This document shows, one piece after another, positions 1 through 30,520 of a stretch of DNA of 64,000 nucleotides (the stretch's first letter is position 1; the number at the start of each line of letters is the position of its first letter). A program made the position numbers and the translations under genes. Source of the stretch: Penicillium oxalicum (taxonomy: Eukaryota; Ascomycota; Eurotiomycetes; Eurotiales; Aspergillaceae); the NCBI RefSeq assembly GCF_001723175.1, contig NC_064655.1, forward strand, positions 2,542,001 through 2,606,000. The letters are read 5' to 3'. Below the pieces are notes generated by a model. It saw nothing but the letters and a program-made list of their open reading frames with translations, was not told the DNA's origin and ran no database searches.

Positions 1-335
1 GAACGGTCCCGTCGGCGCGGGCGAGCAAGGTACACTACATCCATCACCTTGGCCGCCAGGTCTCTTTGACCGGATTGCATAGGTATCTCGAACGGGAGAC
101 CGGGGCCGTGTACCGTGTGTTGAAGATGGGCGAGTGGTTGGAGGAAGCTACACAGGTGGGAATGGATGCGTTGCTACGCACGTATCTGGAGAGTATGGAC
201 AAGGAGGATGTCAAGGTCGTGTTTCCGCGATTAGTGGCCGGGAAGAGACACGCATCGACGGTGGGTGTGGCGAAGGGAGTGAAGATTGGGGAATCTTGGT
301 TGGAAAAGGGCAAGACCTTGTTGTTTTCTTGGTGA
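1..335 (+). CDS. 3' end of a megasynthase: probable terminal thioester reductase (R) domain
   Basis: An open frame enters the window in frame 3 and stops at 333-335, giving about 110 C-terminal residues. The pattern (VHYIHHLGRQVSLTGLHRYL, then GEWLEEA, then GMDALLRTYLE) resembles the end of the NAD(P)-binding reductase domain that releases PKS-NRPS or NRPS-like products as aldehydes: a V-x-Y/H-H strand, a helix starting a T/S-L-x-x-L motif, and an E-W-L/V helix. The neighbouring trans-ER, FUS2-like hydrolase and Diels-Alderase are usual partners of a PKS-NRPS, so I infer this is the tail of that enzyme (PoxE-like). The fragment has no catalytic residues, so an NRPS-like reductase or another SDR remains possible. 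That it is coding is fairly sure; the family is less so. Confidence 0.5.
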   Translation, partial: TVPSARASKVHYIHHLGRQVSLTGLHRYLERETGAVYRVLKMGEWLEEATQVGMDALLRTYLESMDKEDVKVVFPRLVAGKRHASTVGVAKGVKIGESWLEKGKTLLFSW

Positions 336-1275
336 TTTGTTGAGGGGATTACTACCAGTTACTAGAACCGAGATCAGTATGGCTCTACCCAGCTCTCAGG
401 ACGGCCGCAGGGCCCGAAATTTTAGATGCCCTGTTTCATATGGGCCATACAAAGTAGATTCCCCAGGCAGGAAAGCTCCTGAGATCACTGTACAGTTAAC
501 TTATCCTGTCATTGTAGATCAACCTCGAGTCAAACCATCTACACAGCGCCGGGTGCATACCTGCCATAATAGGATCCGTAGGCTGTATAAACTATCTAGG
601 ATGGAATAGTACCCATCCCGCCATCTACAGTCTCTCGAGTCGGTGATCTCGTGTCATGAAGCTGTGCTACCAAATAATTTCTGATTTCCATCGGGGCTTG
701 AATCCCCAGTAAAGAGTACCTGACTGCCCTCAATTCCTCGCAATGTTCGAAGGGCTCATTGTTACGTGTGTCATGAACCACAGCGATGTGCACTAGGGAA
801 GAGGAACCCATCAACGGGTCCATCACTTTAGCAACTCCGGTAGACCGGAACAAAAACTCGTAAGAACTGTCAGATCACTTGATCCACTTGAGTATCATGC
901 ACAAGGCGCGGCTAGATATTTCTCCTTCATCGGTAGGACCGTCAAGGCTGAGGGCCTCCTCCTCCGACCCCGACCCGAAAGGATTCGGTGGACTGTCCGA
1001 AGGAAAATCGGAGAGCACCGGACCCTGCATCGTCAGATATCAAACTCCTCACTGGTTAATTCGTGCATATACTTGGCTCCCATGACAGGGACTGTCCTTT
1101 TAACAGATTCAGCCCGCATAGTGGACTACGAAACAGGAATCATAACTGCTCTTACCTACATCCTTGATACGCAAAGACCACAAGATAAAACGACCTATCC
1201 TCCGCTCTAGCCTAGACCCCAACCCTTCCTCATCTTTCTCACTTACTATCGATTTGACCACAACATCTCTACCTA
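336..1275. other. Intergenic region: 3' flank of the upstream megasynthase and HR-PKS promoter
   Basis: No credible coding frame; the short open frames here show no family resemblance. The last 320 bases before the HR-PKS start hold the clustered TCGGA-type motifs listed separately, followed by a pyrimidine-rich stretch (about 1198-1255) typical of fungal transcription starts. Confidence 0.6.
962..1014. promoter_or_regulatory. Putative cluster-regulator sites in HR-PKS promoter
   Basis: On the minus strand 962-978 reads as three TCGG half sites at about 6-bp steps. Positions 996-1014 hold TCCGAAGGAAAATCGGAGA, an inverted pair of CCGA/TCGG half sites. Similar arrangements recur upstream of other cluster genes. 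CGG-type half sites are the usual targets of fungal Zn2Cys6 factors; the assignment to a cluster regulator is inference. Confidence 0.4.
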
Positions 1276-4200
1276 ATGATCGCCCCAGTAAATGCAGGCG
1301 ACACGGACGCCTCTGAGCCTGGCGACCTGGGCGTCATGCCCATCGCCATCATTGGCATGGCCTGTCGATTCCCCGGCGACGCGTCTAACCCGGAAAAGCT
1401 CTGGAACCTCTGCGCCAAGGGAAAGAGCGCCTGGTCGCCGATTCCGGAGAGTCGGTTCCACGCGGAGAGCTGGTATCATCCAGATAAGGGACATCTTGGG
1501 ACAGTATGTTCACAGATTCTGCTCCTGTGGAGGCTTATTGGGGAAAGAATTGTCTGACAAGTATATTCGATAGTCATACGTGAAAGGCGCACATTTCCTC
1601 ACAGAGGATATCTCTCGATTTGATGCCGCGTTCTTCAACTGTACGGCCGAATCGGCTAGCGTAGGTTTTCCAGTTGTCTTCAAATGCCGGTGAAGAAAAA
1701 AAAGGAAGAAGACCGGGACTGATGTTATTCCAGACAATGGACCCCGAAGTGCGCATGCAACTAGAGACCGTCTATGAAGCACTGGAGAGCGCCGGGCTGC
1801 CGCTGGACCAAGTGGCAGGGTCGCGCACGGGGGTATATGCAGGCACCTGCTTCCGAGACAACCACGACAGCCTAATGCGCGACCCAGACACGCTGGCGCG
1901 GTTCTTCCTGACGGGGAACGGGGCGGCGATGATCGCCAATCGGATCTCGCACTTCTTCGATCTGCGCGGCCCCAGTCTGATGGTCGACACGGGGTGTTCG
2001 ACGACGCTGACCCTGCTGCACCTGGCGTGCCAGAGTGTGCGGGCTGGAGAGTCGGAGATGGCAATCGTGGGGGGGTCGAACGTCTTACTCAACCCGGACA
2101 TGTTCATCGCCGGCTCGAATCTGAGTTTGTTGTCAGAGGCCGGCCGGTGTTTTGCGTTTGATTCCCGCGCCGCTGGGTATGGGCGCGGCGACGGCATAGC
2201 CAGCATCGTCATCAAGCCCCTGGCAGCAGCGCTGCGCGATGGGGACCCTGTCCGCGCGGTTATTCGCAACTCGGCGGCGAACCAGGACGGGAAGACGGCC
2301 ACACTCACGTCGCCGAGCCAGGACGCGCAGGAGGAGCTGATGCGCGAGTGCTACGACATGGCGGGACTCGATCCACGCGACACGAGCTACGTCGAGGCCC
2401 ATGGCACGGGAACGCAGGTAGGCGACACGATCGAAGCCCACGCCATCGGACACGTCTTCGGCGCGGGGCGGAGTAGCGAAAGCCCGCTGGTGATCGGCTC
2501 GGTGAAGACAAATATCGGCCACACGGAGGCGGCCAGCGGACTGGCCGGTGTGATCAAGGTGGTTATGGCGATGGAGAAGCGGGCGATCCCCCCGCATATG
2601 AACTTCGAGTCTCCAAATGAGAAGATCTCGCTGGAGGGGTTGAAGCTGAAGATCCCTCTGAGTTTGCAGGAATGGCCATCACCGTTGCTGCAGCGGGCGT
2701 CGATCAACAATTTCGGGTATGGTGGTGCGAATGCTCACGTCATTGTGGAAAGCCCGCAGAGCATGTTGCTGCCGTTAACTCCATCTTCCTCAGAGATGGG
2801 CAATACCCCTAACCCGAAGAAGCGGTCCCGCGTATTCCTGCTCAGTGCCAAGGATCCCGCCGCCGCCCGCAGCATGGGGGAGAACCTGTACGACTACGTC
2901 GCCACCACCCTGGAGAACAGCCGTGAGAACGAGGAACAGATCCTCGATCAGCTAGCCTTCACCCTCGGGCAGCGACGCACCCGCTTTGCATGGACCACAG
3001 CTTGGAGTGGCTCATCGCTCGCCGATGTACATGCCAGGCTTGGCTCCGCCCGGTCGACGGCAGAACGCAGCACACGTGCGCCACGCGTGGGCATGGTCTT
3101 CACCGGTCAGGGCGCGCAGTGGTTCGCCATGGGTCGCGAGCTATTCAGTGCTTATCCGGTTTTCTATGACACAATGCATGAAATCGATGCCTGCCTCAAG
3201 AATATGGGCGCCACCTGGTCCGCGGTTGAGGAGCTGCAGCGGGACGCCAAAGAGAGCCGCATCAATCAGGTCACGTTCAGTCTTCCGCTAAGTGTGGCCA
3301 TCCAACTGGCGCTGGTGGACTTGTTGCGTTCGTGGGGAATCCGTCCCGCAGGAGTCACGGGCCACTCCAGTGGCGAGGTTGGTGCGGCCTATGCCGCCGG
3401 TGCCATCACGCTGGCAGGCGCAATGGCAATCGTCTACACGCGTGGCGATCTGACTAGCCAGTTCCAAAAGCTCCTGGATCGCCGCGGCGGCATGGTCGCC
3501 GTAGGTCTGGGGCGCGAGGAGGCCGAAAAGGCGCTGGCGGAGGTCCAGTCCGGCACGGCGGTCATCGCCTGTGTCAACAGCCCGTCTAGTGTGACGATCT
3601 CCGGTGACGAGTGCGCCGTGGAGGAAGTCGAGGCAATGCTCACAGCCCGCGGGGTATTTGCGCGCCGTCTCAGGGTCGAGGCAGCTTATCATTCGCACCA
3701 CATGTTGCCGCTGGCTGAGGCCTATCGGGTGTTGCTGTCGCGCTTCCTCGAGCCAAATACCGAGTTCGACTCCACCGTCGTCTACTCGTCCCCAACCACG
3801 GGTGACCGGATGACGTCCGCCGCGGATATCGCTCATCCCGATCACTGGGTGCGCAACATGGTGCAGCCAGTCGAGTTCCTGAACTCCCTGCGCAACCTGT
3901 GCAGTGGTGCTGCTCCGGCCCGCACCAGCACTAGCACGGCGGTCGACATGCTCGTCGAAGTCGGGCCACACGGCGCTCTTGCCGGACCAATCCGGCAGAC
4001 GTTAGCGCTGCCGGAGCTGAAAGACGCGGGGATCACCTACGCCTCGTGTCTCTCTCGTGGCCAGGACGCGGTCCAGACCATCCATCAGCTCATCTGCACT
4101 CTCCTGCAAGCCGGATACCCTGTTGACCTCGAGGCCGTGAACTTCCCCTACGGCCGCAGCGACGTGCAGGTCCTGACTAACCTGCCCCCGTACCCCTGGA

Positions 4201-7200
4201 ACCACGAGACATCGTACTGGGCCGAGCCCCGTCGCGCAAAGAACTGCGCGCCCGAACCGTCGCACCCCACGATCTCCTCGGCGTACCGGCCGCGGGCTCG
4301 ACCCCGACCACGCCAGCCTGGCGACACGTGGTGCGTCCACGCGACATCCCATGGGTGCGCGACCACATCGTGCAGGGGGCAATCGTCTACCCGGGAGCAG
4401 GATATGTCAGCATGGTCGTCGAGGCGCTGCGACAGCTGCAGACGCCCGACAATCCCAGCCACGGCTATCAATTGCAGGACGTCCAAATCCGCAACCCGTT
4501 GATCCTGGAAGACACGGCGGAGGGAGTCGATGTGCAGTTGTCGCTGCATCCGTGTGGCGATCGCGTCCGCCACGCTCAGGGGTGGTATGAGTTTCTGATC
4601 CAGTCCGTCAACCAAACCGGTGATTTGTGGACCTTGCACTGCGAGGGCCTCTGCTGCACGCCGTCCCCCGCCCAGGGCACGGGCTGGGCAGGCCCGCCTG
4701 CGCCGGTGAATGCGCCATCCTTCACTGTGCCAGCCAGTGCGTGGCGCATCCTCAACCCTGCGGATACATACAAGACGCTGCACGAGGTCGGCGTCTGCCA
4801 CGGCCCGATCTTCCAGAACTTGATGTCCGCGCAATCCGCGCCGGGACACTCGCAGTCCGTATTCCAGGTCGCCGACTCGGCCGCCACCATGCCCCAGGGA
4901 TACCAGCAGTCCCACGTCATCCATCCGATTACGCTGGACGCGGTGTTCCAGGCCGTGTACCACAATCTCCCCGCTGGGGGAACACAGCAGCGCACCGCCA
5001 TGATCCCGACGTCGATACAAAACCTGTACATCTCGGCAAAGCTGATCACCTCTCCTGGTCACCAGTTCCGCGCCGATTCAACCCTGATGAAGATCAGCGG
5101 ACAAGGGTTCGAGTCCTCAGTCCGTGTCATCAACAACGCAGGCACCGCAGGCACGAGGCGAACGAGCCACCAACACCGGTACTCACTCTAGATGGGCTCT
5201 TCTGCCAGTCGCTAGGTTCCAGTGCCGTCGTATTGACACCCGACGACAAACTCTGTTATACTTCTGTGTGGGCGCCGGACTTCGACTTCCTGCGGCCCGA
5301 GCACCTTCTTAGAAAGGCCGAGGGTGCCCATCAGCACAGTTTCTCCGAGCTGCAAGCCGCCGCCGTAGTATTCATTAACGATGCCCTGCAGGAGTTCGAG
5401 AACGAGCAGGTGGTGGCAGCGGAGCACCAGAGTTACTGGGATTGGATGAAGGGTGTGGTGGATCAAGCCCGCCCGACGCTGGACCTCGCCGGGGTGACGG
5501 CGCAGTATATGGCTGCGTTGACGGAGGACCTGAAGCAGGGCGTCGACGGGAGACTGTTGTGTCGATTTGGGGAGCGTCTCCCTGAAATTCTGTCGGGACT
5601 GGTCCCGGCCAAGGAGATCCTGCGGGACTTCCTGGTGGAGGACCAGGCTGAATGGTCCTCCGTTTCGGAGTATCTCGAGCCGTTTATGTCTTCGCTAATG
5701 AAGCTCCACGGTCATAAGCGTCCTCGGGCTACGGTCCTCGAGATCGGCACGGGCAATGTGGCTAGTACACGGATGTTTGCGAAGGCGTTGACGCGCAACG
5801 ATACGCAGCTCTTCGCGCGCTACGACGTGACTGCACCCAGCACAGGGCTGGTGGAGGTTGCGAGCAAGGCACTCCGGGACGACACACGGGCTGAATGCAA
5901 GGTTCTGGATTTGGACACGCCGGCTGGAGACCAGGGATTTACTCGCGCAAGTTACGATCTACTGATTCTGTCGGCATCGGCCTTGTTGGCTGCGGAGGAT
6001 GTGGTCCAATCCCTTACCTCGCTGCGTGCTCTTCTTGCCCCGGGTGGTAAATGTATCCTGTGGGGCCCCACCCTGGGTGATAGTGCTCTGCAGACTATTG
6101 TTCGACTCCTCCCAAGATGGAGTGGTGTTATTAATGCCACTCCCACGTGGCAGAGGCTTCTCGCGAAGGCGGGTTTCGAGCCGAGCAACTTCCAGCTCGA
6201 GGAAGGCCTGAACAGTAGCGGCTACCAAGGGGAGGTGGTTATAGCGACCGCTAAAGCTGATACGACAATTTATTCTGCAGTCAAGGTTGTCCTGGTTTCT
6301 GGTACGAGCCCTCCGGAAGAATGGCAGCAAACACTGCAGCACTCGCTTCCTGCTGATGTTGTATCTGGGATTTCTGTGGTCTCGTCGCTCGAGGACGTCG
6401 ATGTTGAGGACAAGGTGTGTTTGATCCTTGAGGAGTTTGTTCAGCCTATCCTCGAAAACCCTTCCGAGGAGCAATTCTACGACCTGCAACGTGTGCTCGG
6501 CAGCAGTCGGGCTACCGTGTGGGTGTCACGCGGTGCTCAGGGCGATGCTGAAGATCCTCGGGGCAGTCTGCACCAGGGTCTTCTACGCACCTTGCGCTGC
6601 GAGAATATTCTCCGTCAGTATGTCTCGGTGGACTTGGACCCGAATGCGCCCGTCTGGTCATCTTCGTCGGCGACCCAGATCGCGTGGATCCTCAGCAACA
6701 TGCTCATTACATCGTCCTTTCATCTTCCCGAGACCGAGTATGCGATTCGCAATTCGGTGGTTCAGATCTCGCGAGTCTATGGCGACGAGCAGGAAGCCCA
6801 GCTAGTGGGTACCACGAAGCCTCAGAACCCGGAGCTACGACCCTGGTCTACTCCTGGGCAGAATATCCGCCTTGGAGTGGCCACCCCGGGACTGCTAAAC
6901 AGTCTTGTCTTCACAGAGGACCCGACGATTGAAGAGACCCTTCCGGACGATTGGGTGGAGATCGAGCCACGGGCATTTGGACTCAACTTCCGCGACATAA
7001 TGGTGGCGCTGGGTCAGCTCGATGAGACGCGGATGGGTTTCGAATGTAGTGGAGTGATTACGCGCGTCGGACAGTCCGCCCAAGCAGCGGGCTTCTGCCC
7101 GGGACAGGGGGTGTATGCGTTCATCATTGGCTACTTCGCGACCAAGGTGCGCATCCCCTTCACCAGTGTGGCCTCGATCCCCGCAGGCATGGACTTCGCT

Positions 7201-9055
7201 ACGGCCGCGTCCATTCCGCTGGTCTTCATCACGGCGTACCATGCACTGGTTGACCTGGCGCGTCTCCAGCGCGACGAAACAGTGCTCATTCACTCGGGCA
7301 CGGGCGGTGTCGGTCAGGCGGCCATCATGCTGGCGCAGTCAATCGGGGCGGACATCTTCGTCACGGTCGGCTCGGAGGATAAACGCGAGTTCCTGATGCG
7401 ACAGTATGGGATCCCTTCGTCGCGGATCTTCAGTAGCCGTAATCCGTCCTTCGCTCAACATATCATGTCGGAGACGGACGGCAAGGGAGTGGACGTAGTC
7501 CTCAACTCCCTGGCGGGGCCACTCCTACGAGAGACGTGGCGATGCGTTGGGATGTTTGGTCGATTCATCGAGATCGGCAAGCGAGACATTGAGCAGAATA
7601 GTATGGTGGAGATGGGGCCGTTTGTGCGGAGTACGCTCTTCGCGTCGCTGGATCTGATCACATTAGGGGAGCAGCGAGGTAAGGAAGTCCAACGCATCTT
7701 CGCGGCTATTAATGAATTGCTGGCCGATGGAGAGATCCGACCAGTGGGACCCATCACCCGATTTGGGATAGGAGAAGTTGAGAAGGCATTCCGTACGATG
7801 CAGACAGGGAAACATATGGGGAAGATTGTTTTGGAGCCTAGACCGGGAGATCAAGTCAGGGTTCTCACCGCCGGGCCCCGACCGGCAGAACTGTCGCCTG
7901 ATGATACCTACCTCCTTGTAGGCGGCGTGGGTGGCATCGGCAAGTCTCTCTGTCAATTGCTCGTCGATCGCGGTGCAAGGAATCTCCTCGTCTTGTCACG
8001 CAATGCAGCTCGTATCACCCCAGAAACCCAACAGTGGCTGGACGTTTTGCAGGCCACCGGTGCAAGAGTTGTGTTGGAGAGCTGCGATGTGACCCAACGT
8101 GCTCAGCTTCAAGCTGTGTTTGAGAAGTATAGTTCTGAGTTGCCGCCCATCCGCGGCGTCATCCAAGCCGCCATGGTGCTCAAGGTACGTGTTCGTTCTC
8201 TGTTCTCTACTACGGCATTACTAACAACTACAGGATGGGATCTTTGAATCCATGACCCACGAGGACTATCTTGCGGCCCTCAAACCCAAAGTCCAGGGAA
8301 CTTTTAACCTGCACACCCTGCTCCCGACCGATCTTCGCTTTTTTATTCTTCTGTCATCCATTAGCGGATTCGGTGGTAACGCCGGCCAAGCCAACTACGC
8401 TGCCGGGGGCAGCTACCAGGATGCGCTGGCCCGCCATCGTGCCGGCCGGGGTCTCCCCGCCGTCTCCATCGATCTAGGCATGGTCTCATCGGTGGGCGTG
8501 GTCGCTGGTACGCAACATGTCGCCGATCACCTCGAGAAGCTCGGCCTACGGGCCGTTTCCGAGCAAGAGGTGTGGGCGTTGGTCGAATCCGCTATCCGCC
8601 ACCCCATCCGCACCCCGGAAACCTGCCATATCGTAACGGGTCTCCCAGGTGGATTTGTCCGGTCGGACTCCCCCGTCTGCTGGAACCGGGACGCCCGATT
8701 CGCAATTCTCGAACAGAAGGATTTCTCTTCCTCGGGCCTGGCGTCTACGTCTAACCCCGGAGCCGGTCTGAAAGAGCGGCTGTCGGCTGTCACGACTCCC
8801 GCGGAAGTCACGACCCTCATTCAGAGCGCCTTGATCACGAAGCTGGCGGAGATGTTCAGTCGCAGCCCGGAGGAGATCGATCCCTCCTTGCCTCTGGCGC
8901 ATTTTGGTGTCGATTCCTTGGTCGCCGTTGAGTTGCGCAATTGGTCGGTCGCAACGGTGCAGGCCGATTGCTCCATCTTCGATGTCATGCATGCGGTCTC
9001 GGTCACGGGGCTTGCAGGCCAGATGGCCAAAAAGAGTCGATTTGTGAAGCTGTAG
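1276..9055 (+). CDS. Highly reducing polyketide synthase (KS-AT-DH-MT-like-ER-KR-ACP), with two apparent frameshifts
   Basis: Exons 1276-1503, 1574-1660, 1734-8184 and 8234-9055 (about 2529 aa). KS: Cys in DTGCST (about residue 191), His in EAHGTGT and [15 protein letters not shown] (about 646). DH: His in RDHIVQG (about 982) and Asp in [10 protein letters not shown] (about 1168). Then a methyltransferase-like region with LEIGTGN (about 1440) that departs from the usual G-x-G-x-G; ER with [11 protein letters not shown] (about 1958); KR with GGVGGIG (about 2168); ACP Ser in FGVDSL (about 2484). No releasing domain. Reading must shift near 4240 (between the AT end and DH) and near 5145 (end of DH); each looks like one missing base with no plausible intron. 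Either a broken gene or sequence errors. By context it may supply the carbon skeleton of an amino acid used by the PKS-NRPS (PoxF-like; inference). Confidence 0.9.
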
Positions 9056-17629: not shown

Positions 17630-20110
17630 GGTTGCTAATGTGCAGAGACGAAGGATGGTGATCGTGACTCTTAACGCTCGTTTCTTGAGGCGGGAGGCAG
17701 GATCGAGGCTCAAATAGGATAAATGGTAGGATAATTCGGTTCAGTCACAGCTTTCTTGGACAATCTCGAGGCAGACAAAAAGTTCACAGAATGAACGCGT
17801 AGCAGGACGGGGTGGGTTTCCCAGTCGACCATGTCAGAGCCTCCCATGTCTCTTTCTTTCCGCTCCACCCCCAGTTGGTTTTAGAATAGGGGGCCGAATT
17901 GACACACCAACGATCTTCGTGTCCGATTGGGTGGAGAGAGTAATCCGGGGCGCCGACTTTGTACCCTCTAGTCGGAGATCCGAATTGGAGATTATCGGAC
18001 CAGGCGAACAAGCACGCGGGACCCCAAACTCCCTAAAGTAGTCTGGCTTCTGTGCCATGAGGAGAGGAGGAGGAGGGGGTAGAGGAGAGAGTACGAAACC
18101 CGATTGCGCCGAATCCGAAAATGCAAATTTGTGTACTGTCGTATGGCACTGCGATAGCTACCGAGAGACCGATTGGCTTTCGTTGCCCCTCAGCCCGTAA
18201 CAGCCTCAGAGCACTTGAGGTCCTTGACATTGTTGGTTCTTCAGGAATCCTCAAGAAACATTCTTGCATAATCGGATGTTACTTTCCTCCTTATCGGACT
18301 GACAGGCTGCGTCGGCCATAAGAGATTACGAAAACAGCCTTGCCGTAATCGGATATTGCTCTGTTCCTTACTGGACTGACAGGCTGCGTTGGCGGTGCAT
18401 ATGAGATTACAGTGTGTCGCGAGCTTAGTGTGGCTTTCCAAATGCAAACTAGTCGCATTGCTCCACGCCAACGGCAATCTTGCTCGTGTGTGCAAGGTAA
18501 GCAGGACGTACGGCACGGACTCTACTGTTACCCTCGATTCGCAGGCCTTCAGTTAAAAATAAAATCTACGTGCAGGGGAGGCTTGCTTTCTCGTTGAAGG
18601 TAGATCCCATATATGGCTCGCTGCGCCAGAAGATTCGTAACCCCTCACGGCTAGATAGGTTCACTACATGCCTGGTAGCTCGGCTGCATATACTGTGTGG
18701 GTGAGTGGGCAGCCTGGGTGCCCTGTGAAGCTACCAAACGATGTATACTACCATCCGTATATGCACTCGCATCGTTGGCTCCCACGGCCTCCTGCGCGTG
18801 AATCATCTAGGCGTGCTCCTTAACTAATTAGTTGGTTGATAACGGTCTCTTTGTTATCCGCAAATCGTGTGAGTATTGCCACCAGGGTGGCACCGCAAAT
18901 GGGTTGATTCGCTCAAAACAGGCGATATCTTCGGCGAGCAGTGAGATATCTAGCCAGCAGGTAATCTTATCGTTGATTGTTGGCGCATTGTGAGGATTCT
19001 TACGCTTAGTGCTGATGTGAAAATGTATCCGCAGGCAACGCAGCGCTAAGGGCGGGGGGTACGGCGGTTTGTAGCGATCATGCGGCAACAACGCTGATTT
19101 GTAATGTTATGCAGCGGCAGAAATGTTGTGCAGAACGAAATACGAATACCATCGGTCCTGTTTTCGTCCATATGTTAGTAAACCACATCGCACAGAAGAG
19201 AGATTCTAAGGTCGCACAGAGACTAATATATCGTACAAAAGCAGAAATTATAAGTATCAAAAATATTTGGGTCATAAAATTAAGGCAGCAATTGAATAGA
19301 GCAATGAAAGCCGCAAAAAAAGCCGCGAAAATAGTAACTATCAAAGTAGCCATTAGAGCAGCAAAAAAATCAACTATCAAAGCAATGTATCAATACAGTT
19401 AAAGCCGCAGTTGAAAAAATAGGGAAAATAATTAGCAGAAAAGCAGGAAAAAATCAGGATAAACAAGCACTGCTCATTTTTGAAGGTAGGCTATTAAGAA
19501 TAGGATACGTCAGTGTTAGTACTAGAAGGAAGTATATATCGTCTATGATCCCAACGACTACAATTTCAATATCATTAATAGGTTAGCATCTCCGGAACAA
19601 GCACATGAAGGATAATGCAATGGGAAGCAATAAGGGAGTACGGCAACCTGGTAGAGGCAATTCGGTGGGCATAAACAATAGCGCGTTGGAGTAAAAGGAG
19701 GGGTAAGGAGCAGGACACGAAGCAATCATAGGTGGAGAACGTGCATATACATGCAGAAAGATGCGTCGAATCCTAAAGCCAAGACAGGCCAGTCCGATGA
19801 GAGCGAAATAAGGGCAAGAAAGGGGGCCAATGAGCGGCGCGCGTGGCGAAACAGTCCATACATAGTTAAGCAAGCTCTTTTTGCAACGGCTCGCGCACAC
19901 GGACATGCATGTTGATTAAAACCCTTTCACTCGTTCCTCGTTTCAGGGCAGTTAAAGTTGCAGAGCGATTTTGCGGAGTAGACCCAGCGTAGTTACCTGT
20001 AGAGAATTCGTAGACAATTTAAATTCAACTAGGAACTAGCACAAAAAGAACAACTAAGATCATGTCCGAGAAAGTAAAAAACGGATATTATGTATTTATA
20101 TCCAATAGCA
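17630..20110. other. Long intergenic region, no gene supported
   Basis: About 2.5 kb between RAE1 and the CmcJ-like gene. It includes the RAE1 promoter with a TCGGAGATCCGA palindrome at 17972-17983, a purine-rich run near 18058-18095, the direct repeat at 18268-18412, and an A-rich low-complexity stretch near 19240-19480 with repeated AAAGCCGC and AACTATCAAAG words. Open frames here look random. Confidence 0.5.
18268..18412. repeat. Two diverged copies of a ~65-bp direct repeat
   Basis: Copy 1 spans about 18268-18331 and copy 2 about 18344-18412. Shared words in order are TAATCGGAT, TTCCT/TCCTTA, GGACTGACAGGCTGCGT, GGC and GAGATTAC, with scattered substitutions. The copies start about 77 bp apart. 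This is an old local duplication; no function can be read from it. Confidence 0.5.
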
Positions 20111-21100
20111 TCACTCATCGCTGAAAACCAGGCAGGAAACCTCAATACTCCAACGGTCAGGAGCTCCCTGGGGAGTCCGAGGATCCCGGAAGGCCGAATG
20201 CACGGCTCTGCCCCCCTGGACGGTACTGTCCTTTTGCAGCGCGTTGGAGTCAAAGATCTGAATCAACAACGCTTCATCCTGAGTGATGCCACTAAGGTAG
20301 AACCACCGCTGCCCGTCCGCGTAGCGAGGCGCGCCGAAGTCCTCGCGGTACTGCTCTGACGCATCGGGCTTGGCGACCGGCCGTCCGAGGGGCATGTCCA
20401 GCCCGCCTATGCCCCCAAGATGACTGACAAAGATCTGAATATCGTTATCCTTGACTGTGGCAGAGCTGGCGACCGCCACGGGACAGGTATAGACGGGCCC
20501 GTTGAGGGGGGTCCAGAAGTGCACGATACGGTAGCGGCCTTGTAGCAGCCGGGGTCCCTCCACGGGGCCCATGTGCCGGAGCACGCGGTTGATGGCGGCG
20601 GGACCTGTCTGATCCAGATGTGCGATCATGGCTGGGGGATTGTAGGGCACTGGCCAGTTCTGCGTGTGGCGGATGCCGTGGCGGAAGATGTGCACGGTGT
20701 GGGCGCCGGGGATGGCGGACTTGATGGCTGCTTCGACAGCTGGGTAGAAGGTCTTCTCCACGCTTTCGACGCTGTTCCAGTTGACCTCGGGGCTGCGCGG
20801 GACGTCGGTCAGGCCTTGCAGGACTTGGAGCGAGTCGCGATCGAGATTGACGCTATTTTCCTTGCCACGTAGGTCCTCGACGGTGACCATTGCGGGCTCA
20901 CCACGAATGTTGGTGTAGGGAACTCCGGCGGGAGGAGGATTCTTGATGAACATGTACCCCGTGCTGGGCTTCTGGAAGTCTTGGGCAAAGAGGATGGGTG
21001 TAGTGATGTCGCCCTTGGGAGGTGGAGGGAGGGTTATGTCCTGTGCATGAGACGCCACAGTAGGAACAGGGGTTGCGGTAGCGGTCATTGCGGTAGCCAT
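20111..21100 (-). CDS. CmcJ/AsaB-like hydroxylase/desaturase family protein
   Basis: Single exon, 329 aa, starting at MATAMTAT (21100); an upstream in-frame ATG at 21190 adds a tail without family character. The family pattern is clear: VHIFRHGIRH, then AHLDQTGPAA, GRYRIVHFWTPLNGPVY, WFYLSGITQDEALLIQIFDS and VHSAFRDPRT, ending in RWSIEVSCLVF. HLD and the late VHSAF histidine match the H-x-D...H arrangement expected of a non-haem iron oxygenase in the GA4-desaturase/CmcJ-like group. Homologues (AsaB and similar) are common tailoring enzymes in fungal clusters. The substrate is unknown; hydroxylation or desaturation of a cluster intermediate is inferred. The promoter carries the cluster motif. 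Confidence 0.75.
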   Translation of the reverse strand: MATAMTATATPVPTVASHAQDITLPPPPKGDITTPILFAQDFQKPSTGYMFIKNPPPAGVPYTNIRGEPAMVTVEDLRGKENSVNLDRDSLQVLQGLTDVPRSPEVNWNSVESVEKTFYPAVEAAIKSAIPGAHTVHIFRHGIRHTQNWPVPYNPPAMIAHLDQTGPAAINRVLRHMGPVEGPRLLQGRYRIVHFWTPLNGPVYTCPVAVASSATVKDNDIQIFVSHLGGIGGLDMPLGRPVAKPDASEQYREDFGAPRYADGQRWFYLSGITQDEALLIQIFDSNALQKDSTVQGGRAVHSAFRDPRTPQGAPDRWSIEVSCLVFSDE

Positions 21101-21680: not shown

Positions 21681-23032
21681 TCAGGCGGAAACAGGCTGGA
21701 AATATGCACCTGGCTCATGCACCGGCACACACCAGTTGAAGACATCCTTGCCCAATCCCCGCTGAATATCTTTGATCGACTTGAAGAGTTTGTCTGCACA
21801 CGGGTAACCTCCATCCTCCGAGGGCTTGTAGACGATCAGATCCCTGAGCGAGTCGCGGGTTATGGATCCGATGGGCACGATAACTGCCGCCGTTCCAACG
21901 GCCAAAACTTCCGAAAACTCGGGCAACTCGGTGTATTTTATCTGGAATAATTAGTAGACGTGAGGTGCAGGGTTAGGGGATACTTACCGGCCGGACCTCA
22001 ACCGACCAGCCATATGATCTTGCTAGCTGAACGCAGCTGTCGCTGGTGACACTCTGGATGATACACGAACTATCTGGAACCACTATCGTAGTCTTCCCAT
22101 CATCATCTCTAACACCAATGAAGCCCGCAGCCGAGAACTCATCGATCTCGGTGCGCGTCTTGCTGTCTAGGTGCAGTGGAATTCCATACCCCCGGGCGCG
22201 CGCTTTGGCAGCCCAACGCAGAACAGGAGCATAGTTTCCACCGACCTTGGCATTCCCGGAACCCATAGGAGCTGTCCGATCAAACTCCTCCATGATCAAG
22301 GCATCCACAGGCTTGGTGCCGAGAAGACTTGTGACGGGAAGAACGAAAACACAGAATGTGTACTCTTCAGGCTGGGCAAGATTGATTTGAGGCCCGGAGC
22401 CAAAGGCCAGCGGTCGGATGTAAAGGGCAGCGCTACTGTCAAAGGGGGGAACGAACTCAGCGTTCACCGACACGGCTAAGGCGACCGACCGAATGAATTG
22501 TACCTGGGGAATAGGGGGAATGGAGACGACCTCACAGGAATGGGCCATGCGCGCTGCGTGCACTTCCGGGCGGAAGATGTGGATTTGACCCTGCGGATCG
22601 CGAAAGGCTGTGTATCCATGAGTGGTGATTGAACGGAATCTATTAGGCTCTGAGAACCTTACCTTTCATTCCTTCGTATGCTTGCTGGCCTATGCTCCGG
22701 TATGTTAGCGGCAGATAGATACTGTCATGAATAACCTACCATAGTTGAGAGCAGGTGAGAGTCCGCTGATGGTCAGGTCAATGCCCTTGACAACTTGAGG
22801 CTCACTCCAGGATTCAGTCGCAACGTTGTAGGCACATTCAACATGTCCATTGACTAAAACTTGTTAGATGGATGCATGGATCTGCTCTTTCAGACTACAT
22901 ACCCTCGCGGACTTTGATACCGATGTTGTCCCAGTCTGATGATTGTCAGCATTGCCCAAAGTCATAGCAGTCTACTGTAAAGAATTTACCAAGGTCCAGA
23001 GGAGCAGGTGGAAAGAAGTCTTTGGGTGCCAT
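21681..23032 (-). CDS. Branched-chain-type aminotransferase (PLP fold type IV)
   Basis: Six exons (23032-22990, 22935-22903, 22853-22740, 22689-22663, 22607-21988, 21941-21681) give 365 aa, all with GT-AG introns. Family landmarks: FFPPAPLDLDWDNIGIKVRE at the N-terminus, LNYGQQAYEGMKAFR, the PLP-binding Lys in GNAKVGGNYAP (about residue 193), TEIDEFSAAGFIGV, and the C-terminal ELPEFSEVLAVGTAAVIVPI. An open frame continues upstream to 23254, but MAPKDFF at 23032 fits homologues and leaves a 238-bp shared promoter with the P450. In the oxaleimide-type scheme such an enzyme (PoxL, from memory) converts an HR-PKS-derived 2-oxo acid into the amino acid loaded by the PKS-NRPS; that substrate is inference. 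Confidence 0.85.
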
Positions 23033-23156: not shown

Positions 23157-23184
23157 TCGGACCTCCGGCCTCGGGGTCGGGCTC
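23157..23184. promoter_or_regulatory. Cluster motif in the aminotransferase/P450 divergent promoter
   Basis: TCGGACCTCCGG followed by TCGGGGTCGGG, midway in the 238-bp space between divergent starts at 23032 and 23271. It is a weaker version of the motif seen at 26198 and 29009. Confidence 0.35.
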
Positions 23185-23270: not shown

Positions 23271-25089
23271 ATGAATGCCCTGATCGGACAGTTGTTGAAC
23301 GCCCCTGTGGCCCTGTTGAAAGGGGCGACTATTGCGTTATCATTTTTTAGTCTCTATGTACGTTATTTTTGCTTTGTTCATTCGCGTTGGCTTGCTAACC
23401 TGCTCATCTGTAGCTGTTTGGCTTGGTCATTTACCGTCTCATCTTTCACCCACTTGCGCAGTATCCTGGACCGCTACTCGGCCGCATAACTAATCTCTAT
23501 GCTGCATACCACGCATGGAAAGGCGACATTCACGAGGATATCTGGCGTTGCCATCAGAAACATGGTAGCTCTCACCGGTCTTGTCCTTTTAGCTATTGAC
23601 TAATTGACCCACAAGGCAACTGCATCCGATATGCCCCGGATCGGCTGGCTTTTGACACTGCCAAGGCAGTATCAGGTAAGAAAATAGTTGAAGTGTAAGC
23701 TCTCAAACCCTAACCATACCAACAGACATCTATGGCTATGGTGGGAACGTTCGCAAATCACAAGTATACGACACGCTTGTCCATCGCACGGCCAACACTC
23801 TTACCATGCGCGACAAGAAGCAGCACGCCCAGCGACGACGCATCATGAGCCACGGTTTCTCGGACGCAGCCATTCGTTCATTTGAACCACGGGTCCAGGA
23901 GTTGATTCAGACTCTTTGCGACCTCCTGATTGTCAAAGATGCCAGCGCGGATAGCGAATGGAGCGCACCGCAGGATATGGCGCCTTGGTGTAAGTCAACG
24001 CTCATAGCGACTGGAAGTTGCGCTCACACCGGGGCTATCTAGTTGACTACCTGACCTTCGACATCATGTCTTCACTTATTTTCAGTGCATCATACGACAC
24101 CCTCCGCCAAGAGAAATACCGGTCGGTGATCCGCGCCATCGAAGAATCCAACGTCCGGGTCAGTGTCCTCCTACAGGCACCGATCGTCACCCTCTTCCGT
24201 AGCGACAAGAAGCTCTTCTCACAGTCCATCCTCGGCCGTAACCACTTCACCCGGTTCATTGGTAGTACAGTCAAGGAACGAGTGCAGAAGAGCAAGCTCC
24301 TCGCCGACCGGGATATATTTTCGTACTTCCAGAGCAGCAAGGCTGCGGCCAATGGCGATTCTATGAACATGAATGAACTCAGCGGAGAGGCTGCCACTCT
24401 GATTGTTGCTGGTCACTATCACCTTCGTTTAGCACCACATACCGCGATTGCTCTCTGACCTCCTTTCAACAGGCTCCGATACCACCGCCACCACTCTCGC
24501 AGCAACGATGTTCTACCTCAGCCAAAGCGCCGACATCTACCACCGAGTCGCCCAGGAAGTCCGCCAATGCTTCAACTCGGAGGATGAAATCCACGCAGGA
24601 AGCCAGTTGAACGCTTGTCGCCTACTGCGGGCGTGCATCGACGAGGCACTCCGCATGTCTCCGCCTGCGCCGCCTGCGGGCAGTGCGCTTTGGCGCGAGG
24701 TCGAGGCCGGTGGCATAACGGTCAATGGTCGTTTCGTACCCGAAGGCTATGATGTCGGCGTGGGGATCTACGCTGTTCACCACAACCCGACGGTCTACCC
24801 ACAGCCATTCCGCTTTGACCCCGATCGCTGGCTGGTAGATGACACTCACGACGTGCGCAGTGCGTTTATGCCGTTTTCTCTGGGAACAAGAAGCTGTATC
24901 GGTAAGGGCTTGGCGCAGATGGAAGCTCTCTTGACACTGGCAAACATCATCTGGCGGTATGACTTCCGGGCTGTTCCCGGTGGGGCGGTCCAGCCAGAGT
25001 ATAAGCTTAAGGATCATGTCACTGGAGCAAAAACCGGGCCTGTGTTGCAGTACCGTCGGATTGTTCGGGATAAGATAATGATAGGTTGA
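23271..25089 (+). CDS. Cytochrome P450 monooxygenase
   Basis: Six exons: 23271-23357, 23414-23564, 23616-23675, 23726-23989, 24043-24411 and 24473-25089; 515 aa, intact. It has an N-terminal membrane anchor (about residues 10-30), a proline-containing hinge after the first intron, the I-helix AGSDTTATT, the ExxR motif in DEALRMS, the PFRFDPDRW region, and the haem loop [12 protein letters not shown] with the cysteine thiolate (about residue 451). Microsomal, needing a P450 reductase. By position it matches the P450 next to the aminotransferase in oxaleimide-type clusters (PoxM-like, from memory), where oxidation of the HR-PKS product precedes transamination; the substrate here is unproven. 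Confidence 0.92.
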
Positions 25090-25489: not shown

Positions 25490-26080
25490 CTACGCTTTCA
25501 GACCCTCCAGGGTGGCCCAAACCCCAACCACCCAAAAAGGCACATCTACTATCCAAAACCTTATATTGTTGACCTTCATCCACCCTGCCAACAACTCCAT
25601 CGCGACATGCGGAACCGTCTCTGGGCTCATCATGCGCTTCTCGAACTTCAACATTTTGGGCGCCACCGACAAGTGCGCAAACGATAGGAAAAGTCCAACA
25701 CCGTAAAGAAAGCGGGCGTTGCTGCCAGCGAGGTCATCTGGGCGCACGAAGAGATTCAGGATGAGGGCAACCCGAGTGAAGAGGACGATGCTGATGACAC
25801 CTGTCCAGACGCGGGGAACGACTGTCTGCAACCAGTGCTGGAAGGCGGCACCGACGTGGTCGATTTTCTTGGGGGAGGTGTGAGGGGGAAGAAAGGTGGA
25901 GAGGGCGAAGTATTGGGCCAGGCGATTAACGAGGCTGTTCGTTGTGTTAATGTGACTTGTAGAAAAGGGGGTTGGAAGGGGAGCGCGAGCGTACAGGATG
26001 GTGGTGGTGATGAGAGGAGTCACTCGGAGGACCTTTAGGGCTAGGCTGCCCGCGGAGACAACCAGGAGATCGAGCGCCAT
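25490..26080 (-). CDS. Small multi-pass membrane protein of unknown function
   Basis: Single exon, 196 aa, start at 26080. Four hydrophobic segments are visible, at about residues 4-30, 88-112, 121-142 and 170-192. The charged loops include RPDDLAGSN and KFEKRMM. I do not recognise a catalytic motif. It shares a promoter with the divergent hydrolase gene, and that promoter carries two strong copies of the cluster motif, so it is likely a co-regulated cluster member (in oxaleimide-type clusters one protein of unknown function, PoxN, has this position, from memory). Possible roles are an accessory protein for a membrane enzyme, or transport. Confidence 0.65.
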   Translation of the reverse strand: MALDLLVVSAGSLALKVLRVTPLITTTILYARAPLPTPFSTSHINTTNSLVNRLAQYFALSTFLPPHTSPKKIDHVGAAFQHWLQTVVPRVWTGVISIVLFTRVALILNLFVRPDDLAGSNARFLYGVGLFLSFAHLSVAPKMLKFEKRMMSPETVPHVAMELLAGWMKVNNIRFWIVDVPFWVVGVWATLEGLKA

Positions 26081-26197: not shown

Positions 26198-26247
26198 TCG
26201 GACTCGGATTCGGCCTCTTCGATAACCCCTCCCGAAGTAGTCGGAGA
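26198..26247. promoter_or_regulatory. Cluster motif pair in membrane protein/hydrolase divergent promoter
   Basis: TCGGACTCGGATTCGG (26198-26213, three half sites at 6-bp steps) and CCCGAAGTAGTCGGAGA (26231-26247). It lies 118-167 bp from the start at 26080 and 111-160 bp from the start at 26358. Confidence 0.45.
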
Positions 26248-26357: not shown

Positions 26358-27623
26358 ATGATGCATCGGTTCTTCAAATCTGAATTCTTCAACTTCGAAT
26401 TCATCCGCATTCTCTCCGCCGCCCCCTACGGTGGAGCTGAAATCGCAGAATGCCTGGTGGCAGCCGGCCAAATCACCAACGATGACCCAGAGAGCTGGCA
26501 TCGGGCGTGGATAATCCAGGCCGACAAAGCGAAAGCCCTGGGAGATGAAGCCCTGCACTCTGGTGACACCGTCTCCGCGCGACGAGCCTACCTTCGCGCC
26601 TCCAACTACCGCGCCAGTGGCTACATGTTCCACGATCGGCCGGGGGCACCGGACGCTCGCGTCTTGCCCCTGGCGCAGCAGGTCCTGGACACTTATGCTC
26701 TCACCTTACCGCTACTAGACACCGGCGAAGCAAGCCAGCTCAAGATCCCGTTTGAAAACTACCAACTCGCCGCGTACCTTTACCTTCCGCGCGACCGCAC
26801 GAAGCCTGTACCCGTGCTACTCAGCCTCGGCGGTGCAGACTCCATCCAAGAAGAGCTGTACTACGTCTACGCAGCCAGCGGACCCCAATTGGGCTATGCC
26901 GTACTCACCTTCGAGGGACCGGGCCAGGGCATCACTCTTCGCCGCGACAAGATGCACATGCGCCCGGACTGGGAGGTCGTCGTCGGCCGCGTCCTCGACT
27001 TCCTGACGGCGTATATGCAGCAAAACCCCTCTGTGCAGCTGGACCTTTCACGCGTCGCGGTCGTCGGGGCCTCGATGGGGGGGTACTACGCCCTCCGCGC
27101 GGCTGTCGACCCGCGCATCGGGGCCTGCGTCTCGATCGACCCCTTCTACGACATGTGGGATTTTGTGCGCAACCACGTCTCGCCGGCCTTGCTGAACGCG
27201 TGGAACGCCGGGTGGGTGCCTTCGCGGGTCGTCAACGGCATCATGTCGATGGCGATGGCAGCTTCGTTCCAGGCTAAGTGGGAGGTCGGCCTCGCGATGT
27301 GGTTCTTCGGCGTCGACTCCCCGACGCAGACGCTGCGACATATGATGAAGTATACGCTCGCCCGCGCAGATGGGACGAGTCGGCTGGACCAGGTCAAGTG
27401 CCCTGTGTTGGTGTCCGGGGCGACGCAGTCACTGTATCTGGAGCCGGAGAGCGATGTGCTCCGTGTCTTTGATGCGTTGGCGCATCTGGGTGACGAGCGG
27501 CGCGAGATCTGGATCGCGAGGTCGCCGGAGGAAGGTGGTTTGCAGGCGAAGATCGGAGCGATCGGGCTGGTGGTGCAGAGGACATTTCGATTTTTAGATC
27601 AGCATCTTAATGTTACGCGGTAG
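26358..27623 (+). CDS. Alpha/beta hydrolase of the FUS2/cytochalasan-hydrolase type
   Basis: Single exon, 421 aa from the ATG at 26358 (a second ATG follows at once). The N-terminal helical cap domain (AYLRASNYRASGY) is typical of this FrsA/DPN-hydrolase-like family. The core holds an oxyanion-hole strand LLSLGGADS, FEGPGQG, the nucleophile elbow GASMGGYYA, and SIDPFYDMWD. The C-terminal segment where a catalytic His is usually found reads EEGGLQAKIGA and shows no His. Relatives next to PKS-NRPS genes (FUS2, CcsE, PoxO-type) are required in fusarin, cytochalasan and related pathways, around the aldehyde-to-pyrrolinone (Knoevenagel) step. Intact reading frame. Confidence 0.85.
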   Translation: MMHRFFKSEFFNFEFIRILSAAPYGGAEIAECLVAAGQITNDDPESWHRAWIIQADKAKALGDEALHSGDTVSARRAYLRASNYRASGYMFHDRPGAPDARVLPLAQQVLDTYALTLPLLDTGEASQLKIPFENYQLAAYLYLPRDRTKPVPVLLSLGGADSIQEELYYVYAASGPQLGYAVLTFEGPGQGITLRRDKMHMRPDWEVVVGRVLDFLTAYMQQNPSVQLDLSRVAVVGASMGGYYALRAAVDPRIGACVSIDPFYDMWDFVRNHVSPALLNAWNAGWVPSRVVNGIMSMAMAASFQAKWEVGLAMWFFGVDSPTQTLRHMMKYTLARADGTSRLDQVKCPVLVSGATQSLYLEPESDVLRVFDALAHLGDERREIWIARSPEEGGLQAKIGAIGLVVQRTFRFLDQHLNVTR

Positions 27624-27722: not shown

Positions 27723-28917
27723 TCAGGGATTTTCTCGATCGAGAAACACCACCAATTTCTCGCCAGACGTCCCTCCTGATTTAAGGATATCCAGACATTT
27801 CAGGATCCCTTCGAATCCTCCTTCAACCGTCCTGGTGGGGTGAGGAACGAATTTGCCCTCGTCTACTAGTCGTTGAATGGTCTGGAAAAACTCACCACTG
27901 CGGGCGCGCAACTGGGGGTTGGCGGTGCGCTCGTAGCCGTCCGCCAGGGCAATCTCCTTACCACTGGCAGCCAACCCAACAATCATCTCCTTGCGAACGG
28001 TGCGTCGGAGATGCAATTCTTCCGCGGGCTGTTCAAGGCAGGTGTACTTGCCCCCCACGCGGCTGAAGGTGTCGTAGCAGATCAGTTGGGATTGGAGGTC
28101 AGTGATGATGTCGAGAACGTGCCGAAGGCGGCCATTGGTGTAGCTCTTGATGTCGGCTGCACAGGTCTCGGATCGGTAGTCAAAGACCTTCTCAGCACCG
28201 GCGGCTCTCACGAGGTCGTTATTGTGGGGAGAGCAGGTGGCTATGGGACGATATCCAGAGCTGTATGCGTTTTGTCAGTAGTGTGGAATGGAACGTGTGA
28301 CCCGGGACGAGAACATACAGTCGCAGAATTTGGAGAGCTGCTGTTCCAGTGGAGGTACTACCCCCGTAGACCAACACGGGTGGTGGATCGTCCTGAAGAG
28401 GCATGTCGGGGGTCCCTTCCAGACCAAGAGACTCGTACAGGGCAATCCACAGAGTTGCGAACACGCTGCCTCCGAGAACGGCCCCTTGCGCAAAGGAGAG
28501 CTTGTTTGGCAGTTTCAAGAGCAGGTCTGCATGAGCAGCTACGTACTGCGAGAAGCTACCTGATGGTAGATCGATAGGATTTGACCCGTGAATGCCACCG
28601 CATACCCGATCGCCGATGCGAAGGTCTCTTCGGATGCGAGCTGCTTCAGGACCAATGGATAGCACGATGCCGGCAAAGTCACAGCCGATTCGAGCTCCGG
28701 GGGCAGGAAAGCGGGAAGGCATCTTCCAGTCACAAGGATTGATGGAGACAGCGATCGTCTTTACCAGCACCATGTGCGGTTCGGGGATTGGAAGTGGTGC
28801 ATCGTGTTAGATCGTAGCCTTGCCGGTCTCGTCTTCAGCGATCACCGTTTGCTGGGACGGGAGAGAAACCGCCGCTGGTAAAAACCCGGCTGGAAGTGAA
28901 CATGGCTGAACAGGCAT
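27723..28917 (-). CDS. Trans-acting enoyl reductase (LovC/CcsC type), with an in-frame stop near the N-terminus
   Basis: Exons 28917-28319 and 28260-27723 (58-bp intron) span 378 codons, the usual size for the family. A GroES-like domain ([30 protein letters not shown]) precedes the Rossmann domain ([25 protein letters not shown]), and the end is [20 protein letters not shown]. It acts in trans on the polyketide chain of a PKS-NRPS whose own ER is inactive. From the natural start at 28917, codon 37 is TAA (28807-28809), although protein similarity runs through it ([15 protein letters not shown] before, [11 protein letters not shown] after). Starting instead at 28773 would lose 48 residues including the first strands. 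Pseudogene, strain mutation or sequence error. Confidence 0.8.
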
Positions 28918-29008: not shown

Positions 29009-29030
29009 TCGGATTCGGAGATTCGGTCGG
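29009..29030. promoter_or_regulatory. Cluster motif in trans-ER/Diels-Alderase divergent promoter
   Basis: TCGGATTCGGAGATTCGGTCGG, four TCGG half sites in the same direction, located 92 bp upstream of the trans-ER start and 150 bp upstream of the Diels-Alderase start. Confidence 0.45.
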
Positions 29031-29179
29031 CGTCAATTCGGTTCAACCGGCCCCGTAAGCCCTAATCCCAGCTCCTAACACCCAAATAATCAGCTCCCAT
29101 TGCTCCAACACTTTACTTTTATGGTCCGGCTACTAGATTCTTTCACTTGCAAGAAGGTATCCCCCATTGTGTGGTCACA

Positions 29180-30520
29180 ATGGCTCGAATCCCATTGGAG
29201 TTTCTGTCCATCACTCTCCCCGTGCTCCTCCTCGCCTACTGCCTGGCCATAGAGTACGAAGTATCTCTCCCAACCATCGCCCACACCAGCCCCGCCAGCA
29301 ACCCCGAAGAATACCTTCAATCGATATACGAGCAATTGAACCTTGACCTCCCTTCCACCTGCACGGTGAACCACTTGTCCGCCTTCGACAACACACCCAC
29401 CTCACTCCTCAACTTCTCCACCTCCCCCGTCGAACATTTCGACGCCCCCAAGCTCCCTTCGGGCTTGAACGCCACCGCAGGGGAACAATGGGCGTTCGAC
29501 GGTACGTCCTCTTCCGGCCGCAGTGGCCTCCTGCTGGGTATCTACCGTGACGCATCGTACGCCTTCCTGGGGCCGGGGAACTTCCGCCTCTCGCTGGATC
29601 TGGTGTGGGATAATAGTACCACCTGGTCCACCGTCGACTACCTCTCCTCGTCGACCGTGCACACGTGCACTGATAAAGTGGTCGGCATCTGGTCCCACTC
29701 TGCAGATCACTATTACGTCTTCACTGTGACCGCCGACGCCAAGCACGCGCGCATTCACTTCCACACTCCGGACGTTGTTGGTGCCGTCGACCTGTACAGC
29801 ACCACCCCCGCGCGCTACCCGGACGGCGCGCTCTTTCCGTCCGAGGTATCGGTGACGCAGAACGCGCCCATGCTGCACTGGGTCGAGCCCATTCCCGGCG
29901 GATTGATCGATGTTGATCTCAAAGTGAAGGACACCCCTTTCCGGTGGACGGGACTCGGCGGCCACGAGCGCTGGTGGTCAGCGAAGGGCTGGCTGGATCT
30001 CATGACGCATTGGGAGGCCGTACGGCTGATGGCAGGGCCCTACGTGCTAAGCTTCTGGCAGCCCACCTCCCGCGTGAATGGGGTGGCATATCCGTCCGCG
30101 TTCTTGACCAAGTACGGTGAGAAGGTGTTTTCGGCTGTAAGCGGCAAGGTATCGGAGGTGGAGGATTATATTCTATATAGTCCGGTGAGAATGGAGAAGC
30201 AGGCAAGGGAGACGGGGTATGAAGTTGAGTTGGTCTCTCCGGCCCAAGGGAGGAGGTGGGTGTTTGGGTTGGAGTATCGCAACCAGGAGTTTGAGTTTGA
30301 GCTGGGCGACGCAGCCGGGGGGAGGGCATATGTGGGGAGAGCGAAGGGTGGGGAGGTTCATGCAGACGATAAGCCGGAAGAGCCATCTGAGGGCGTGTTC
30401 TTCATTGAACATGTGGATGTCAAGGCGTTGACTGTTCCAAGGGCTTATGTGGTTGTTTGTGAGTGGTACTATCGGGTGCAGGCGCAGGTGCTGAACTCGT
30501 GGAGGAATGGGGGGCAGTAG
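29180..30520 (+). CDS. Lipocalin-like Diels-Alderase (AttH/CrtC fold)
   Basis: Single exon, 446 aa from the ATG at 29180, intact. An N-terminal hydrophobic stretch (about residues 4-24, LEFLSITLPVLLLAYCLA) looks like a signal or anchor. Two beta-rich lipocalin-like domains follow, with family landmarks [60 protein letters not shown] and GPYVLSFWQPTSRVNG. Relatives (Fsa2, CghA, MycB, CcsF, PoxQ) catalyse intramolecular [4+2] cycloaddition of PKS-NRPS-derived polyenes, giving trans- or cis-decalins or the cytochalasan ring. With hydrolase and trans-ER adjacent, this gene defines the cluster type. Which ring it forms cannot be read from the sequence. Confidence 0.88.
   Translation: MARIPLEFLSITLPVLLLAYCLAIEYEVSLPTIAHTSPASNPEEYLQSIYEQLNLDLPSTCTVNHLSAFDNTPTSLLNFSTSPVEHFDAPKLPSGLNATAGEQWAFDGTSSSGRSGLLLGIYRDASYAFLGPGNFRLSLDLVWDNSTTWSTVDYLSSSTVHTCTDKVVGIWSHSADHYYVFTVTADAKHARIHFHTPDVVGAVDLYSTTPARYPDGALFPSEVSVTQNAPMLHWVEPIPGGLIDVDLKVKDTPFRWTGLGGHERWWSAKGWLDLMTHWEAVRLMAGPYVLSFWQPTSRVNGVAYPSAFLTKYGEKVFSAVSGKVSEVEDYILYSPVRMEKQARETGYEVELVSPAQGRRWVFGLEYRNQEFEFELGDAAGGRAYVGRAKGGEVHADDKPEEPSEGVFFIEHVDVKALTVPRAYVVVCEWYYRVQAQVLNSWRNGGQ

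Follow-up and report, generated by a model that had tools for sequence, protein, structure and literature searches.

A Rae1-like gene and a common promoter repeat in the oxaleimide (pox) cluster of Penicillium oxalicum

The pox (oxaleimide) cluster of Penicillium oxalicum was reportedly introduced in a founding paper by Sato et al. in 2017 in JACS. Some fungal clusters carry self-resistance genes that arose by duplication of the target, such as those encoding the IMPDH of mycophenolic acid, the proteasome subunit of fellutamide and the DHAD of aspterric acid. According to a review, PoxF, PoxM, PoxL and PoxE form a route in which the chain made by a highly reducing polyketide synthase (HR-PKS) is turned by a cytochrome P450 and an aminotransferase into an unusual amino acid, which is passed to a polyketide synthase-nonribosomal peptide synthetase hybrid (PKS-NRPS) (PMC8902786). 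A survey of fungal PKS-NRPS describes the oxaleimide clade III-C as 40 clusters with a trans-acting enoyl reductase (trans-ER), a type II-beta Diels-Alderase and a transaminase (PMC7421883). For the genome of another strain, a further report describes an oxaleimide cluster in which similarity extends to 60% of the genes (PMC9911084). Production of oxaleimide K has been reported for Penicillium roqueforti, in an article that, as far as its main text is available, does not contain the words “gene cluster” (PMC10235286). Here, a 64,000-nucleotide stretch of P. oxalicum DNA (C6:2542001-2606000, hereafter the window; the genome counts 30,766,980 bp in 17 contigs) was analyzed together with the sequence to its left. 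Its contents are almost certainly the published pox cluster, with the pathway set out below. The cluster as such is already published, and the new leads are a copy of a Rae1-type gene and a repeat common to the cluster promoters.

The lipocalin-like Diels-Alderase matched UniProt poxQ of P. oxalicum at 424 of 426 aligned residues (relative to the representative of the UniProt poxQ cluster there are 2 substitutions, and the predicted C-terminal residues differ), and the aminotransferase was 100% identical to UniProt poxL across 365 aa. Because of these two gene-level identities, the locus, announced as an oxaleimide-type cluster in the original prediction, is recognized as the oxaleimide cluster itself. 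Besides, residues 100-940 of the HR-PKS were 100% identical to a P. oxalicum protein, and the domain content of the remaining genes agreed with the pox cluster according to Pfam and NCBIfam matches. Every element named in that prediction was recovered through such matches, the 196-aa membrane candidate having no Pfam match and being judged hydrophobic by eye; its list had omitted the WD40 (Rae1-like) gene at 16533-17629 on the minus strand and the reading-frame changes of the HR-PKS. A PKS-NRPS, whose absence from the left flank had been named beforehand as grounds for abandoning the prediction, was indeed found there. It begins 12 kb left of the window and, read across the edge, runs over 4,067 codons with 0 internal stops and six GT-AG introns of 52-84 nt, the reductase-like megasynthase tail noticed at positions 1-335 being the end of its reductase (R) domain. 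The family matches of its frames give the order KS-AT-DH-MT-KR-ACP-C-A-T-R. No enoyl-reductase family was among the matches of the scanned PKS-NRPS frames, and no ER-type motif was found in them either. The R domain contains GATGFIG and YLATK, the motifs expected for reductive release. The features of membership are thus a PKS-NRPS next to a separate HR-PKS, an ER-less PKS-NRPS accompanied by a separate trans-ER gene, the PoxL aminotransferase with a P450, and the lipocalin-like Diels-Alderase PoxQ, all of which are present.

The roles of the hydrolase, the trans-ER and the Diels-Alderase are known at the family level. In the pathway that best explains this gene set, the HR-PKS chain would be converted to (S,E)-2-aminodec-4-enoic acid by the P450 and the BCAT-type aminotransferase, and this amino acid would be loaded by the PKS-NRPS, two steps taken from the literature. 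From domains and motifs, the trans-ER would provide the reduction absent from the PKS-NRPS, the terminal R domain would release an aldehyde, the hydrolase may assist pyrrolinone closure, the Diels-Alderase would form the decalin ring, and oxidative steps would lead to the final maleimides and succinimides. TCGG-N2-TCGG direct repeats are probably the sites at which a regulator of the cluster works. The first part of this pathway, from the HR-PKS chain through P450 and aminotransferase to an unusual amino acid used by the PKS-NRPS, had been anticipated in the original prediction and matches what the review says of PoxF, PoxM, PoxL and PoxE (PMC8902786).

Three points weigh against this assignment. 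Among the gene letters, Q and L are UniProt names, whereas E, F and M were taken from the review (PMC8902786) and the others were assigned chiefly by gene order. The P450 genes of the region number three (one inside the window, the others to its left), and PoxM was assigned by order only. Finally, the HR-PKS changes reading frame twice in this assembly; unless an assembly error accounts for this, the branch that supplies the amino acid may be non-functional in the strain. A hydrolase, a trans-ER and a Diels-Alderase are also common to cytochalasan clusters and to other decalin or pyrrolinone PKS-NRPS clusters, and the PKS-NRPS survey gives a trans-ER with a type II-beta Diels-Alderase for three clades (PMC7421883). 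A cluster of one of these kinds instead of the oxaleimide cluster is nevertheless extremely improbable, being refuted by the gene-level identities to poxQ and poxL; moreover, the second megasynthase and the aminotransferase are both there.

The HR-PKS was present as predicted, KS, AT, DH, MT, ER, KR and ACP matches all falling within 1276-9055, but in this assembly it was not one clean gene, the DH lying in a third frame. KS-AT was read in 1665-4499, DH in 4181-5188, MT-ER-KR in 4624-8244 and KR-ACP in 8225-9052; the first three are different frames, with changes near 4.24 and 5.16-5.18 kb. The frames were compared with 17 relatives hand-picked among the 120 matches listed, whose HR-PKS copies are continuous. 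Against all 17, frame 3 carries KS-AT and frame 2 takes over for the DH from 4238-4247 onwards; the return to frame 1 occurs between 5143 and 5176 against 15 of them, the other two resuming later, at 5641 and 5695. Introns in place of these changes were rejected: candidate GT-AG pairs had to span 40-199 nt, keep the phase and reach a donor score of -1 or more, and the best 10-15 inspected per join would excise sequence that is read as protein in relatives. Two stretches are skipped in the public protein model of this genome, one that ends at 4411 and one of 44 nt at 5180-5223. The latter is bounded by a GT-AG pair below the donor cut-off, and because 15 of the 17 relatives read through it, both skipped stretches are taken as forced introns; the public model is not reliable around the DH domain. 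The frame changes are an assembly error or a recent break. A gene truly broken in this strain, yielding no or altered oxaleimides, would agree with the disagreement between KS-AT and DH frames against every relative and with the second change against most of them, as well as with a DH frame that, at 336 aa, is the shortest among nine DH-bearing frames in the genome. Such a break is unlikely, however, as the DH stretch keeps 85-88% identity to the two nearest relatives compared and retains, by eye, the H-x3-G-x4-P motif, the adjoining PKS-NRPS is unbroken over its whole length, and an error of long-read assembly accounts for the frame changes equally well.

The window contains 14 copies of the direct repeat TCGG-N2-TCGG, where 2.8 were expected and 100 shuffles gave a maximum of 7; the promoter regions of the cluster account for 7 of these copies, the coding sequence of the HR-PKS for 2 and the part right of the cluster for 5. 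Once the left side is counted too, there are 10 promoter sites, spread over 8 of the 10 promoter regions of the cluster (C/D, E, F, H/I, J, L/M, N/O and P/Q), that of the Rae1-like gene among them, the two E sites lying 1.9 kb from the predicted start. The repeat was not found in the promoter regions of G and K; with a gap of 8 (TCGG-N8-TCGG), K has two copies and G none. Because the repeat was found after the fact, in a scan of 304 dyad patterns, a class-wide control outweighs any nominal probability. Among 3,328 direct-repeat 4-mer patterns, each taken with its reverse complement, TCGG-N2-TCGG was the most widespread. The only other pattern present in more than 4 of the 10 promoter regions was the same half-site with a gap of 8 (6/10), and the best pattern of any kind in 40 Markov resamples reached 5/10. 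All ten sites match TCGGRNTCGG, which has 940 sites genome-wide (reversed control, 650), so that 0.35 sites would be expected in the 11,537 promoter bases. In the 18,678 intergenic bases right of the cluster, 0 sites were found, the one TCGGRNTCGG at 63292 falling within a predicted gene. The 30.77-Mb genome has 107 occurrences of the exact word TCGGATTCGG (reversed control, 23), four of which fall in 14.4 kb of cluster sequence. To the left, the start of the major facilitator superfamily (MFS) transporter has three overlapping TCGG sites (L013:9427-9448), inside the coding sequence of the model. The AflR-type motif TCG-N5-CGA was not found in the 10 cluster promoter regions or in 8 controls. 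The common repeat, no more than an indirect sign of co-expression, suggests a putative binding site of a pathway regulator, and this candidate site may offer a way to draw the cluster borders.

The WD40 gene of the cluster interior is predicted to encode a Rae1/Gle2-type mRNA-export protein. It matched 461 sequences of solved structures; the four best are chains that bear the name mRNA export factor, presumably human RAE1, with E values of 4.5e-79 to 2.3e-77. The molecule ranked next is a PkwA WD40 domain (5.8e-29), and Bub3 scores 4.7e-22. A Rae1-type gene is usually single-copy. A genome search with the first 227 residues gave one other strong match, split into two segments at C4:3545111-3545879 that score 172.8 and 76.7 bits, whereas the WD40 match ranked after it reaches 46.4 bits; this copy on contig C4 is presumably the housekeeping one. 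The two copies are 54.2% identical to each other, and their identity to the RAE1 chain is 42.6% for the cluster copy and 46.8% for the C4 copy. Changes confined to the cluster copy affect 36 sites and those confined to the C4 copy 22, a difference without statistical significance (chi-square 3.4). A published study names five Rae1 pocket residues (PMC8790125); the cluster copy retains four of them, the fifth being H where the C4 copy has K. One Cys common to the human and C4 proteins is Thr in the cluster copy. The repeat at 18109 can serve the Rae1-like gene only, among predicted genes, because the gene on the other side ends towards it, and no TCGG-N2-TCGG was found in a 4-kb region around the second copy. 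Since its promoter carries the repeat, the Rae1 copy appears to belong to the cluster, and it is very probably a genuine member.

A gene of housekeeping type that recurs, in diverged form, in the cluster interior and bears the repeat of most cluster promoters gives the pattern of self-resistance. The reading tentatively added to the best explanation is that this copy is an oxaleimide-tolerant Rae1 and that oxaleimides would act on Rae1 or on the Rae1-Nup98 complex. It is consistent with structural matches to mRNA export factor far above those to PkwA and Bub3, with the existence of a second such gene on another contig at the identity given above, with the interior position and the presence of TCGGATTCGG in this promoter as opposed to the surroundings of the second copy, and with the pocket residues, four retained and the fifth H. 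Against it, the cluster copy has not changed significantly faster than the other (36 vs 22), the Cys to Thr difference is only 1 of 36 such changes, and TCGGATTCGG is over-represented genome-wide and not only in the cluster. A function of the copy in self-resistance is consequently regarded as possible though not as probable. That the gene is instead a bystander, or a duplicated gene whose function, regulatory or otherwise, is unrelated to self-protection, has about an even chance: unrelated genes do sit inside fungal clusters, but a second, diverged copy bearing the repeat of most cluster promoters is more than the usual trapped neighbor. The fuller self-resistance proposal, in which the pox cluster would hold its own tolerant Rae1 copy, switched on via TCGG-N2-TCGG, while oxaleimides block Rae1-dependent mRNA export, is conjectural and somewhat doubtful on the present comparisons of sequences. 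Among the papers listed in searches of a mostly open-access literature, none was seen to link Rae1 with a fungal gene cluster. The Rae1 copy may tell what oxaleimides attack, and it makes this question directly testable; if the proposal were true, this natural product class would be aimed at the nuclear-pore exit of mRNA.

The features of the locus are collected in Table 1. The gene finder missed small exons (in the aminotransferase and at the starts of the HR-PKS and the thioesterase), which were corrected by eye, and also output antisense artefacts. Scans of the window with Rfam at the gathering threshold and for tRNA gave no match. Going left from the PKS-NRPS, two P450 genes are followed by sequence of helitron and Copia type and by an HLH-domain gene, after which come a gene whose product has a Zn-cluster-like start and an MFS transporter. 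The transporter, of the TRI12 type, and the Zn2Cys6-like protein, whose start was recognized by eye in a model without Pfam match, are probably outer cluster genes. The Copia/helitron stretch separates the regulator/transporter side from the P450/PKS-NRPS side, and a genome search found no second copy of a 1,470-bp helitron piece. Right of the cluster, window positions 31900-34300 hold an AT-rich repeat, of which about 1.9 kb is 93% identical to a stretch of contig C7; a short inverted-repeat element with dozens of dispersed partial copies comes after it, at about 33850-33921.

Table 1. Coordinates of genes, promoter repeats and flanking elements (window positions unless a contig or piece is named).
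Feature	Position	Strand	Remarks
PKS-NRPS (PoxE), 3' end	1..335	+	whole gene C6:2529761-2542335, 7 exons, 4,067 aa
TCGG-N2-TCGG, E-F spacer	964..973	-	
HR-PKS (PoxF)	1276..9055	+	KS/AT/DH/MT/ER/KR/ACP, Pfam/NCBIfam
Thioesterase-like, 4HBT_2	11776..12739 (matching frame 11957-12736)	+	first exon by eye
Zinc-type medium-chain dehydrogenase/reductase (MDR)	13257..14467 (matching frame 13283-14476)	-	family match
TCGG-N2-TCGG, H/I divergent promoter	14657..14666	+	
NmrA-like NAD(P)-binding protein	15341..16426 (matching frame 15331-15933)	+	start codon by eye
Rae1/Gle2-type WD40 mRNA-export protein, candidate self-resistance gene	16533..17629	-	345 aa, 2 exons
TCGGATTCGG site	18109..18118	-	480 bp upstream of predicted ATG of Rae1-like gene
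CmcJ/NvfI-family oxidoreductase	20111..21100 (matching frame 20114-21211)	-	148.6 bits, cut-off 80
Class-IV (BCAT-type) aminotransferase, PoxL	21681..23032 (matching frame 21976-22665)	-	365 aa, 6 exons
TCGG-N2-TCGG, L/M divergent promoter	23171..23180	+	
Cytochrome P450 (PoxM by position)	23271..25089 (matching frame 23994-25086)	+	N-terminal exons of model uncertain; carries what we take to be a heme-type motif
196-aa protein without Pfam match	25490..26080 (frame 25493-26080)	-	hydrophobic stretches by eye
TCGG-N2-TCGG, two overlapping, N/O divergent promoter	26198..26213	+	
FrsA-like alpha/beta hydrolase	26361..27623 (matching frame 26328-27620)	+	family match; presumably FUS2 type and letter O
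trans-ER (MDR)	27726..28806	-	two frames; limits approximate; presumably letter P
TCGG-N2-TCGG, P/Q divergent promoter	29009..29018	+	
Lipocalin-like Diels-Alderase, DA_N + DA_C, poxQ	29180..30520 (matching frame 29090-30517)	+	UniProt match
Copia-type fragment (Pol_BBD) and helitron-type frames (Helitron_like_N, PIF1, DUF6570)	C6:2516130-2521998 (L009:4130-9998)		
TRI12-type MFS transporter; protein with Zn2Cys6-like start	L013:9394-10000, L014:5-1490, L014:3035-4759		

Relatives of the HR-PKS and of the Diels-Alderase appear, by an indirect sign, to be linked in P. roqueforti, Aspergillus sclerotialis and Aureobasidium subglaciale, and the aminotransferase relative shows the same sign in the latter two species. 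In P. roqueforti, the relatives are 73% identical for the HR-PKS (scored region) and 62% for the Diels-Alderase, while that of the aminotransferase, at 69%, is listed on another contig. Both Aspergillus aculeatus and Penicillium robsamsonii have a KS-AT with 93% identity, a value that looks high for species so far apart; horizontal transfer is a possible cause.

Compared with the described systems, the locus resembles the pox cluster in that it comes from the same species and contains the PKS-NRPS, HR-PKS, aminotransferase, P450, hydrolase, trans-ER and Diels-Alderase. Like clade III-C, as described in the survey (PMC7421883), it has a type II-beta Diels-Alderase, a transaminase and a trans-ER. 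It differs from the pox reference by the HR-PKS frame changes in this assembly and by the two substitutions and predicted C-terminus of poxQ, and it may differ from the published cluster by the helitron and Copia-type sequence lying in this genome between the transporter and P450 sides. Similarly to the IMPDH, proteasome-subunit and DHAD self-resistance genes, the Rae1 copy lies within a cluster and would duplicate, in diverged form, a gene of housekeeping type; here it is equipped with the repeat of most cluster promoters.

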